A stretch of DNA of 64,000 bases from Vicinamibacteria bacterium. Lineage in GTDB: Bacteria; Acidobacteriota; Vicinamibacteria; Fen-336. Under the pieces are notes generated by a model. It worked only from the letters and a program-made list of their open reading frames with translations, was not told the DNA's origin and made no database searches. The first letter of the stretch is position 1, and each line of letters begins with the position of its first letter. The stretch lies in contig DATMML010000103.1 of NCBI GenBank assembly GCA_035570235.1, forward strand, positions 1 through 64,000, in the 5' to 3' direction. Below are positions 30,606-52,238 of the stretch, one piece after another. The translations under genes were made by a program, and so were the position numbers.

Positions 30606-32189
30606 TCATGCCGCGGGCAGGAAGACGCGGGTCTCGAGAGATCCCCCGGGCAGGGGCGCGAAGCGGAGGAAGCCCCCCAATTCCCGGACCAGGCGGTAGG
30701 CCTCACCCAGGGGACCGGGATCCGTCCCTTGAAGCAGCCGCTGCTGGTCTTCGGGGGAAAGGATCCCCCCGTGGCCGAGGGCGACCATGAGGAAGTCCCG
30801 CTTGACGTCCCCCTCCTTGCTGCGCAGGAGAACGGGTTTTCGTTCGCTACGCACGTGGATCGAGGCCCCCGGCGGAGAGACGGCGGCGATCCCGTGGAGG
30901 AGAGAGGTAGCCATGCGGCGCAGGCTGGGCGGCGGGCAGCGGGGCAAGGCGGTGCCGGGGGCGACGCGAAGGTCGACGGTGACGCCCCGAGCCCCCAGGA
31001 TGGCCCGGGCCGCGTCCATCGACTCCCGCAACAGTCCTTCCAGGCCGGACGCGGGCGGAGACTCCCGCGACACCGCGACCAGGCCGACCGGAGTCTCCCG
31101 CGACGACGCCGCCACCGGGGAGGGCCGAGCGGGGGGGGTAGGAGTGGGGGTCGGGGCGGGGGCGGGGGCCGCCTCCGGGCGCGCCCGAGCCGAGGATGCC
31201 AGCCCCCTCATGATCTGGCGCAGGCGCGAGGCCTCCTTCTGGATGGTGCCGATGCCCGCCGCGCGCTTGCCCTCGTCCCGGTAGGAAAGCGCCAGGTCGG
31301 CGTGGGACAGGATCGTGGCCAGGCCGAGGTTCATCTCCTCCACGAACCCGGACAGGGCCTCCGCCAGCTCCACGTTCGAGCGGATGGCCCGGTGGAGCAG
31401 CTCTTCCGAGACCAGCCCTCCGTCGGGCGTGGCTTGGACGGGGTAGGCGCGCTCGGAGTCTGCTCCCTGGGTCACGATCACGCGGGGGGGAGCGGCCACC
31501 GTCTCCCCCGGAGAGGGGGGCGGGACCTTCTTCAGCAGGGCGGAGAAGGCCTGCTCCACCACCTCCGGCACGCTGGCAGGATCGAGACCCTTCTCCTTCA
31601 AGTTGTACTTCACGGCGATAGCGGCCAGCATCTCCTGGACCACGGCCACGAAGGTCTCGAGGACGCCCTCCCCCCGCGCCGCCACCGCCGGGAAGGCCTT
31701 GCGGCCCCAGAAGTTCAAGGCCCGATCCATCTCCGGGCGGGGCTGCAGATCGGACAGGTCCTGCTTGTTGTACTGGAGGACCAGGGGCACCTTCTCCGGG
31801 ACCAGGCGGTTGGCCAGCAGGTTGACCTTCATGTTCTCGAAGGCGGACACGTTCTCCTTGTGCAGCGCCTTCTGGCTGTCCGCCACGAACACCACCGCGT
31901 CCGCCCCCGCCAGCACCACCCGCCGGGTGGCGTTGTACTGCACCTGGCCGGGCACGGTGTAGAGCTGGATCTTGAAGTCGTAGCCGGACACCGCCCCCAG
32001 GCTGAAGGGGAGGAGGTCGAAGAAGAGGGTCCGGTCCTGGGCGGTGTTGAGCGAGATCAGACGGTTGGCGCTCTCGGGGTCCGTCAGGCGGTGGATCTGC
32101 TCGAGGTTGGTGGTCTTCCCCGACTGGGCAGGGCCGTAGTAGACCACTTTGGCCTTGATGGTCCGTTCGCTGAAGTTGAACTGGACCAT
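30606..32189 (-). CDS. MglA-type small GTPase fused to a degenerate histidine-kinase module
   Basis: A 527-residue fusion. Residues 1-200 are an MglA/Ras-like GTPase: P-loop GPAQSGKTTN (19-28), switch TVPGQVQYNATR (78-89) and NKQDL (141-145). Residues about 275-335 align with a HisKA helix pair, but the H-E-L-N-N-P-L site reads VEEMNLGL, with E284 in place of the phospho-accepting His. After a Pro/Ala linker (340-380), residues 385-527 resemble HATPase_c but lack the N-box Asn (SLLHGI) and the G1 Asp (VALGHGGI), keeping the GPLGEAYRLVRELGG tail. Kinase activity is therefore unlikely; a GTPase scaffold for polarity or motility is my inference. Confidence 0.8.
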   Translation of the reverse strand: MVQFNFSERTIKAKVVYYGPAQSGKTTNLEQIHRLTDPESANRLISLNTAQDRTLFFDLLPFSLGAVSGYDFKIQLYTVPGQVQYNATRRVVLAGADAVVFVADSQKALHKENVSAFENMKVNLLANRLVPEKVPLVLQYNKQDLSDLQPRPEMDRALNFWGRKAFPAVAARGEGVLETFVAVVQEMLAAIAVKYNLKEKGLDPASVPEVVEQAFSALLKKVPPPSPGETVAAPPRVIVTQGADSERAYPVQATPDGGLVSEELLHRAIRSNVELAEALSGFVEEMNLGLATILSHADLALSYRDEGKRAAGIGTIQKEASRLRQIMRGLASSARARPEAAPAPAPTPTPTPPARPSPVAASSRETPVGLVAVSRESPPASGLEGLLRESMDAARAILGARGVTVDLRVAPGTALPRCPPPSLRRMATSLLHGIAAVSPPGASIHVRSERKPVLLRSKEGDVKRDFLMVALGHGGILSPEDQQRLLQGTDPGPLGEAYRLVRELGGFLRFAPLPGGSLETRVFLPAA

Positions 32190-32247: not shown

Positions 32248-32276
32248 ACTATAGCATGGGGCCCAGGGGCCCACAA
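32248..32276 (-). promoter_or_regulatory. promoter of the GTPase/pseudo-kinase gene
   Basis: Reading leftward, TTGTGG (32276-32271), a 17-bp spacer and TATAGT (32253-32248) lie about 60 bp before the ATG at 32189. The spacer holds a GGGCCC-type tandem repeat. Confidence 0.5.
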
Positions 32277-49341: not shown

Positions 49342-50199
49342 TCACGAAGAGGCGGCGCCGGCCCCGGATAGGATGTGGGTTTCGATGGCCACCGCCACGC
49401 CGTCCTCGTCGTTGGTGGGGAGGACGGGCAGACCCAGGCGCCTGAGCTCGGGATCGGCGTTGCCCATGATGAGGCCGAGCCCCGCCCCCTCCAGCATCTC
49501 GTGGTCGTTCCAGTTGTCGCCGATGGCCAGGGTCTCCTCGGCCCTGAGCCCCCACCGCTCCTGCAGGAAGGCGAGCGCCTCGCCCTTCCCCACCGAGCCC
49601 TGGAGCACGTCCAGGAGGCCCACTCCGCTCTGGGGATAGACGGTGCGCACGACCTTGGCCTCCTCCCCCAGGACCGACTCCAGTCCGGGCCGAAGAGCGT
49701 CCATCTCCGCCTGGGGGCCCCCGAACATGACCTGGATGGGAGCCTCCGGGAGCGCGGCCGCGAGGTCTTGGACCGTGGACACGTCGGGAGAGGATCGGTC
49801 CAGGTAGTAGGCCACGAGCGTGCTCCCGCGCGCCGAGCTCTGCACGAGCAGCTGCCCCTCGCCGTCGAGGCCGCAGTGGACCACGGGGGTCGCGCCGTGA
49901 TCGTGGCCGTAATGGACGGCCCGGAGCGCGGCCTCCCGACGCAGCGGCCGGCAGCGGATCACGGCCCCCCGCTCGATGACCAGGGCCCCGTTGTGTAGCA
50001 CGAGCGGGATCTCGCCCCCCAAGTCCTCCGCCACGCGCCGCGCGGAGGGATAGCGCCGGCCCGTGACCAGGACGAGATGCACGCCCGCCGCCCGCGCCGC
50101 CCCGACCGCCGCGCGCGTGCGGGGCGACAGGCCCTTCTCGCTCGTGAGCAGGGTCCCGTCGATGTCGAGGGCGAGGAGCCGGAAGCGAGCTCCCCTCAG
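49342..50199 (-). CDS. Cof-type HAD hydrolase (CTG start)
   Basis: A 285-residue HAD-IIB phosphatase. Motif [11 protein letters not shown], motif II VLVTGRR, and motif [16 protein letters not shown] are intact; the cap lies between about 90 and 190. Substrate unknown, usually sugar or flavin phosphates. Between the cyclophilin stop and motif I the only possible initiators in frame are CTG codons. CTG at 50199 overlaps the upstream stop as CTGA, the same geometry as the ATGA/GTGA/TTGA junctions elsewhere here. Confidence 0.85.
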
Positions 50200-52238
50200 C
50201 GGCCGCCCCAGATCTCGATCCGCTCGATCACGTCGCCGGGGCGGATCTTGTCCACCACCTCCATCCCGCTCACCACCTGCCCGAAGAGGGTGTAGCCCCC
50301 GTCCAGGTGCGGCTGCGGGGAGTGCGTGATGAAGAACTGGCTCCCCCCCGTATCCTTTCCGGAGAGGGCCATGCCCACCGCCCCCCGCCCGTAGGGCCGC
50401 TCGCCGATCTCGTCCCGGAGCGTGTAGCCGGGCCCGCCGTTTCCATCGCCGCGCGGGCAGCCGCCCTGGATCACGAAGTTTGGCTCTACGCGGTGGAAGG
50501 AGAGGCCGTTGTAGAAGCCACGGCGGGCGAGGGCTATGAAGGAGGCGCACGTCAGGGGGGCTTCCACGGTGTCGAGGTGGATCTCGATGGCGCCGTAGGC
50601 CGTGTGGATGAAGGCCCGCGGGGTGAAGAGCGGGAGGCTGGGGACGGGTTCGTAGGGAGCCATGGCCAGCCGGTAGTCCAGGGGGGGGCGCTCCACGCTC
50701 TCCGCGCCGGGCGGGGGCGGAGAGGCGTCCCCCCGAGCCTTGAGGGCGGCGGCGGCCTGGGCGCGCACCGGCCGCGCGGGATCGCTCTTCGCGATCTCGA
50801 GGAGGGTGGCGTGGGCGGCCTCGTCTTTCTGCACGGCCAAGGCCGCCACCTGGCCCAGCCGGGCGTCGAGGTCGGCGTCCTCCAGGGACCGGCGGTAAGC
50901 GGCGAGGAGGGCCGCGGATTGGCCAGGAGCCTTGAGCGCGGCCAGGCCCTCCGCGGCCGCCGCCCGCACCGCGAAGTCCGGATGCTCGAGGTGGCGGCGT
51001 AGGGTGTCCACGGCGTCGTTGCCTCGGGCCTTGCGGAGGGCCTCGAGCACCGATGGGAGGACGCGCGTGTCCTCGTCTTTGAGCATCCCCAGGAGAGTGA
51101 CCAGACTGGCCTCGTCCCCCGCCTCCCCCAGAGCGGAGGCGAGGGCGGCCCGCACTATCCAGTCCGGGTCGGGGTCGAGGCCGGAGAGGACGAGGGCGAA
51201 CTCCTCGCGGTCGGTGCGGGCGAGGGCGGGCAGGGCGGCGGCCCGGATCCACGCCTCCCGGGCCCCGACGTAGGGCACGATCTTCGAGCCCAGAGCGGGG
51301 TCCGGGGGGAGCAGGGCCAGCGCCTTCAGCGCCTCGCGCTTGATGATGAGCGGGGCGGTGGCGAGGGCAGCGGCCACGGCGGGAACCCCCTTGGCGTCGC
51401 CGATGGTGGCCAGGCCGCGGAGGGCGGAGACCACCACCCTCTCATCCTTGTCGCGGCTGAGGCTGGCCAGGATCTCGACCGCACTGGCGTCCTTGAGGGC
51501 CCCTAGGCCGCGCGCGGCCAGGGCCCGGCTCAGGGGATCGCCGGAGGAGGCGGAAGCGACCAGCACCGGGCGAAGGGACGGCAGCTCGACGCGCATGGCG
51601 ACGTAGGTGGCCGCCCACCAGTCGAAGCGTGGCCGACCCCCGGCGAGGAGGGCGGTCTCCACGGCTCGTGCGTCCTTGAGGCGGGCCAGGGCTAGGAGTC
51701 CCAGGCGCAGCTCTAGCCAGGGATCGGCGGGGCTGCCCGGGTCATCGCCGCGCACGGTCACGAGGCCGGCGCCCTTGGGCACCGCGGCCAGCACGAGCTT
51801 GGCCACCTCCCCCGCCGCGCGCGCATCGCCGATCCGACCCAGCGCCTCCGCGGCGCGGCCCCGCACCACGGGGTCCGAGTCGGCGAGGGAGGCGACCAGC
51901 CGGTCCACCGCCGAGGTCTCCCCGATGAGGCCCATCGCGAATGCGGACACCTGCCGCACCTCGGGCTCGGGATCGTTCATGAGGTCCACGAGGGTGGGCA
52001 CGAGCGCGGGGTCGGCAACGCGCCCCGCGGCGAGGGCGGCTCGCCGGCGCAGGCTCCGGTCAGGATCGCGCAGGTAGCGGTCCAGCTCACCCCCCCCCGT
52101 GCTCCGCGTGTCCTCGAGGGCAAGGATCCGCGTGAGTTTCTCCGGGCGGCGGCGTGGCGGGGGAGCGACCGCCAAAAGGACCGGCGCGGTCAGGAGAAAC
52201 AGGAAGGCGGCGCGGCGCGGGAAGGAAAGCGCGGGCAT
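50196..52238 (-). CDS. HEAT-repeat protein fused to cyclophilin peptidyl-prolyl isomerase
   Basis: A 680-residue exported protein. After a signal peptide (about 1-25) come HEAT/PBS-type repeats from about 40 to 490 ([29 protein letters not shown] and similar). Residues about 525-680 are a cyclophilin domain: [19 protein letters not shown] and [20 protein letters not shown] keep the catalytic Arg and the Q-x-F-I-T core. A periplasmic chaperone with an extended protein-binding solenoid is the likely role. TATAAT lies ten bases before the ATG. Confidence 0.9.

Follow-up and report, generated by a model that had tools for sequence, protein, structure and literature searches.

A Vicinamibacteria protein combining an MglA-type GTPase with a histidine-kinase core that lacks catalytic residues

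The gene described here, from a Vicinamibacteria genome, encodes a protein that is almost certainly, judging by its sequence and predicted structure, an MglA-type GTPase fused to a histidine-kinase core without catalytic residues. Sequence analysis and structure prediction establish the fusion, the fold, the loss of the catalytic residues, the retention of the GTPase residues, the purifying selection and the presence of the protein throughout its order. The best overall explanation, with a probability of roughly 0.55, is a catalytically complete switch carrying a dead core that serves as its docking or sensor input. The window, the whole stretch of 64,000 nucleotides that was analysed, covers positions 1-64000 of contig C103 in a host genome of 5.72 Mb that is 99.6% complete. 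The features of the gene are collected in Table 1.

Table 1. Gene and protein features, in window coordinates.
Feature	Position	Strand	Evidence
Entire gene (527 aa and stop codon) for MglA GTPase with pseudo-histidine-kinase	30606..32189	-	ORF; orthologues at 16 further loci, one frameshifted
MglA-family GTPase domain, residues 1-195	31605..32189	-	phmmer 7e-49 to MglA 6hjh; orthologue alignment
P-loop GPAQSGKT, residues 19-26; Ala at 21, equivalent to Ras Gly12	32112..32135	-	sequence, orthologue comparison
R53, arginine of DRTLF motif, invariant	32031..32033	-	orthologue alignment
Q82, catalytic Gln of TVPGQ, invariant; Thr78 rather than Asp	31944..31946	-	orthologue alignment
Linker 196-259, partly helical, then disordered	31413..31604	-	AF2; alignment
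DHp-like two-helix hairpin, 260-336	31182..31412	-	AF2; HisKA match in 7/15 orthologues; hhalign
E284, phospho-His position; R/Q/H in other species	31338..31340	-	hhalign; species survey
Pro/Ala-rich linker 337-382, poorly conserved	31044..31181	-	AF2; dN/dS up to 1.5
CA-like domain of Bergerat fold, residues 383-527, without its ATP-binding motifs	30609..31043	-	VIA Z up to 17.5; hhalign; motif loss
G433 at N-box Asn position	30891..30893	-	profile alignment
Extended beta-hairpin ERKPVLL..G..RRDFLM, 449-468	30786..30845	-	alignment; conservation
G472 at G1-box Asp position	30774..30776	-	profile alignment

The open reading frame spans exactly the interval given in the first-pass annotation, which had named no strand; it lies on the minus strand and opens with the ATG at 32189, giving 527 residues. 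Read on the plus strand, 30606-32189 yields a GC-rich shadow frame. Starting from the in-frame TTG at 32276, the protein would have 556 residues; the ATG is taken as the right start because all orthologues, which come from metagenome-assembled genomes (MAGs) titled Acidobacteria or Vicinamibacteria, begin with MVQFNF.

In the N-terminal part, residues 4-189 align without a gap to residues 4-189 of MglA (PDB 6hjh) in a phmmer comparison (E = 7e-49, 170 bits), and the P-loop GxxxxGKT, R53, T78, Q82 and the NKxD motif are invariant in all 15 full-length orthologues, in agreement with the earlier assignment of the first ~200 residues to an MglA GTPase. A Thr at position 78, where Asp is usual, is a hallmark of MglA (PMC3000849), and the Q82L variant of M. 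xanthus MglA has lost hydrolysis (PMC2907295). The GTPase domain, R53, Thr78, Q82 and NKxD are thus shared with MglA, the Group 1 Ras-like GTPase of M. xanthus and T. thermophilus, whereas MglA has ~195 residues and Gly21 and the window protein is multidomain, has Ala or Pro at position 21 and is encoded without an adjacent mglB. At 527 residues it also exceeds the single-domain size of at most 240 residues applied to the MglA family (PMC4316618).

Residue 21 is Ala in 13 and Pro in two of the 15 orthologues, and never Gly; in T. thermophilus MglA, G21V lowers kcat about sevenfold (reported in PMC3000849). Ala or Pro is present at this position in 15/15 window-type proteins, in 18/18 motif-complete MglA-kinase fusions, in 9/10 fusions that have lost only the phospho-His and in 13/13 members of two GAF pseudokinase types, against 1/24 MglAs that carry only a tail. 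As independent evidence for slow hydrolysis this correlation between Ala21 and fusion was set aside, since it amounts essentially to one branch of the tree, a clade character.

The C-terminal half, residues 260-527, is a histidine-kinase DHp+CA module by both profile alignment and structural model. A Pfam search with the C-terminal half of the window protein gives no match, the HisKA and HATPase_c gathering scores not being reached, and HisKA is matched by 7 of 15 orthologues (best E = 2.1e-5). In hhalign, the orthologue profile aligns to 23 histidine kinases from the host genome along the whole DHp+CA (probability 98.9, E = 2.7e-17), and one reversed and five column-shuffled control profiles reach a probability of 1.2 at most. 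The AF2 model of the C-terminal half alone, built on orthologues only, has a pLDDT of 84 (~90-96 in the CA, ~83-93 in the DHp), with helices at fragment residues 2-43 and 47-77 followed by an alpha/beta sandwich at 122-268. Structural matches by Foldseek and VIA comprise HK853, DivL, RetS, VanS, CusS and PhoQ; the best VIA score is a Z of 17.5 over 129 residues to the VanS CA, followed by DivL, HK853, RetS, CusS and PhoQ. The agreement of AF2, VIA/Foldseek and hhalign is the ground for assigning the fold, and the controls together with the structural matches rule out a chance similarity to kinases. The earlier reading of this half as DHp and ATPase domains, for which a failed structure prediction would have been fatal, is therefore upheld. 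In the full-length AF2 model the GTPase part has low confidence, and contacts between domains are not claimed from it.

The module has nevertheless lost what a kinase needs, as read from its sequence, and yet is maintained. The phospho-acceptor His, N-box Asn, G1 Asp, G2 glycines and ATP lid by which histidine kinases are recognized are all wanting. Profile alignment places E284 at the phospho-His site and glycines at the N-box Asn and G1 Asp sites, with the GG near the C-terminus (505-506) kept; the first-pass annotation had likewise read a Glu at the His site, loss of the Asn and Asp, and a retained GG. The N-box Asn and G1 Asp are absent in all orthologues. Relative to kinases, the ATP lid is ~10 residues shorter and the hairpin formed by strands 443-473 is ~12 residues longer in the profile alignment, and its extended part, 449-468, is possibly a new interface. 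Close homologues also lack the His and the catalytic residues, except that one keeps the acceptor His only. The refuting condition named in the first-pass annotation is thus not borne out, and the reading as a pseudokinase holds.

The further proposal that Glu imitates a phosphorylated His, holding the module permanently in its signalling-on form, gains from the alignment of E284 with the acceptor and founders on the species survey. Among 17 species (16 aligned sequences plus the frameshifted L019, which reads R), the acceptor position is Arg in 11, Gln in four, His in one (L007) and Glu in the window genome only; neither the residue is fixed nor its charge conserved. Glu is, moreover, a poor mimic of phospho-His, and the idea retains very little probability. 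Phosphorylation of the module in trans by a motif-complete kinase, within a heterodimer or an HPt-like relay, would be in line with the acceptor His of the L007 orthologue and with the 58 places in the host genome that match HATPase_c, but no His or Asp is invariant anywhere in 255-527 across the family, which excludes a family-conserved phospho-site and makes this route most improbable.

The pseudokinase module is under purifying selection at the sequence level. The dN/dS values are 0.02-0.32 for the CA, 0.05-0.52 for the DHp and 0.03-0.18 for the GTPase, rising to as much as 1.5 in the Pro-rich linker, those of the very close pair L010/L011 being based on few changes. All genomes sampled from the order have the module joined to MglA: 14/14 in the family to which the window belongs and 3/3 in another family. 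The module occurs in 0/176 genomes of the rest of the class. One of the 17 orthologues (L019/L063) is frameshifted inside the DHp, in a MAG, where an assembly error could be the cause. That the C-terminal half is a decaying, functionless relic would fit the lost kinase motifs and a DHp that evolves faster than the GTPase. With the fusion present in 17/17 genomes of the order (the frameshifted MAG included), specific motifs conserved and dN/dS well under 1 outside the linker, this is scarcely credible.

Within the module, conservation is highest at 263-278, 449-468 and 503-525 (GGFxRFA...E.R.F.P), and helix 279-286 belongs to the less conserved stretches of the DHp. A simpler role, in which the pseudokinase merely pairs or targets the MglA domains and receives no signal, is possible but doubtful: the DHp hairpin is confidently predicted by AF2, and the strongest DHp conservation falls at 263-278, the N-terminal part of helix 1 and a dimerisation segment in kinases, but such a scaffold has no need of a conserved CA-like domain with the invariant extended hairpin 449-468 and GGFxRFA. 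Conservation of the CA-like domain and its extended hairpin tips the balance modestly towards receiver docking and away from a plain scaffold.

In the preferred explanation, the dead core would keep dimerisation through the DHp helical hairpin and would offer a docking surface to response-regulator receiver domains, or to other kinases by heterodimerisation. Once a partner binds, the GTPase in the same chain would shift its state, whether by way of hydrolysis of GTP, exchange or access of effectors, and signals would presumably pass from the phosphorelay to the GTPase, much as the DivL core reads phosphorylated DivK. On this analogy, the odds that the dead kinase is a dimerising docking or sensor module regulating the attached GTPase are a little short of even. 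In Caulobacter DivL the phosphorylatable His is absent and the kinase core is repurposed to sense phosphorylated DivK (PMC4211667). DivL and the window protein share the DHp+CA fold and the replaced phospho-His, and the DivL structure 4q20 is among the best structural matches. Against the analogy, DivL is attached to PAS domains and retains the N, G1, F and G2 motifs, whereas the window protein is attached to a GTPase and has lost its ATP motifs. The part of the DHp that contacts response regulators, 279-302, is less conserved than the preceding helix 263-278 and so does not suggest a single, constant response-regulator partner.

The genomic neighbourhood also speaks against docking, as no MglB, receiver/response-regulator or kinase gene lies beside the window gene. 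Rsh and RidA genes are found upstream in 11/13 loci of the family; in the window, a divergent ORF stands between them and the gene. In several loci, genes of FadL-like and GDSL-like type come after it. The host genome has a canonical mglB-mglA pair on contig C9; Robl_LC7, the domain of MglB, is found in three places in the genome, one of them in this C9 pair and none on contig C103. Elsewhere in the window, at 50196-52238 on the minus strand, a HEAT-repeat array is fused to a cyclophilin-type prolyl isomerase.

In Streptomyces conservons, the kinase CvnA, the GAF protein CvnF, the MglB-like CvnB and the MglA-like CvnD are separate products acting in one pathway, CvnF driving CvnA autophosphorylation (PMC13343842). 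The conservon (CvnA-D plus CvnF), an actinobacterial G protein system, thus resembles the present family in bringing a histidine kinase, a GAF protein and an MglA-type GTPase into one pathway. It differs in that its components are separate operon proteins that include an MglB homologue, whereas the window protein holds the GTPase and the kinase core in one chain. No cvnA-B-C-D operon surrounds the window gene, whose neighbours are those of the Rsh, RidA, FadL-like and GDSL-like types.

Searching with the GTPase through the class and the phylum Acidobacteriota returned many MglAs in long frames. In other families of the phylum, 40 long-frame MglAs were retrieved, 32 of them with a kinase core; the sample was picked for long frames, so these counts are not frequencies. 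The His, Asn, G1 Asp and G2 are all kept in 18 of the 32, another 10 have lost the His and keep most ATP motifs, and the remaining ones are partial, L155 among them. In examples such as L159, GAF, HisKA and HATPase_c score above the Pfam cut-offs. Like the window protein, the MglA-GAF-HisKA-HATPase fusions have an N-terminal MglA, a C-terminal kinase core and Ala21; unlike it, they are ~690-800 residues long, carry a GAF (or PAS) in between and have complete motifs in 18/32. The motif-complete form (L159, L149, L152, L153, L156, L160-L162, L165, L178, L179 and others) is more general than the window protein and apparently undescribed. Fusions in which the phospho-His is lost (A, D, G, Q or unaligned) and the ATP motifs are kept include L150, L171, L173, L148, L157 and L163; ATP-binding, non-phosphorylating switches are one possible description of this form. 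Two more degenerate types occur within the class, of the form MglA-coil-GAF-degenerate HATPase and ~630-750 residues in length; the copy in the host genome, L002, runs off a contig end.

The claim of a new architecture therefore holds in part: proteins that combine MglA with a kinase occur widely in the phylum, most of them having a GAF domain and a motif-complete kinase, and no paper describing such a fusion was found in the open-access full-text literature, where absence is not proof. The family seems to have been overlooked because the main survey, which defined the MglA groups, removed sequences of more than 240 residues (PMC4316618).

The GTPase tree gathers the window-type proteins in one clade (100/97) and the tail-only MglAs in another (100/99). 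The window type is not placed among the fusions, whose mutual relations are weakly resolved, and on this weakly resolved tree the acceptor state has to change six or more times. An earlier quick tree had grouped the window type with the intact and GAF fusions (SH-aLRT 90). In the kinase-core tree, the window type lies nearer the NtrB-like kinases of the genome, and AU tests (p = 0.37 and 0.67) do not reject its grouping with the fused kinases. Neither origin is thus rejected, and decay of the dead core from the kinase of the widespread MglA-GAF-HK fusions is one of the two possibilities.

In Acidobacteriota, a single chain thus unites two signalling systems that are commonly regarded as distinct. 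For Myxococcus (Frz, RomR) and Streptomyces (conservons), the way in which two-component systems connect to MglA-type GTPases has still to be worked out, and natural fusions are direct evidence that GTPase and kinase modules act together, testable in one purified chain. The series of motif-complete, His-lost and fully dead cores in one family provides ready comparisons for the role of the kinase core for the GTPase. Only tentatively, these proteins may be read as an undescribed Acidobacteriota family of one-protein hubs, MglA with a motif-complete or dead kinase, in which, in the window's order, the dead kinase would serve as an input reader through which response regulators of the phosphorelay set the state of the GTPase. 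If this hub reading is true, the usual direction of flow through the kinase core is reversed.

Several other long MglA proteins were observed in the search. The paralogue at L113:277-2022 is MglA-GYF_2-response regulator receiver-DUF4388, a second kind of direct fusion between MglA and a two-component protein. By Pfam, L155:104-2494 is an MglA-PAS-HATPase-REC hybrid; L174, L176 and L180 cluster with it on the tree. These proteins come from one family with several complete genomes, and they keep Gly21. In the MglA paralogues L003, L005, L091, L093, L094 and L096, a long tail rich in Pro and Ala finishes with a short stretch that looks beta-rich, as in SVPIELNLEPGTTLVNLSLRLVLKIK.
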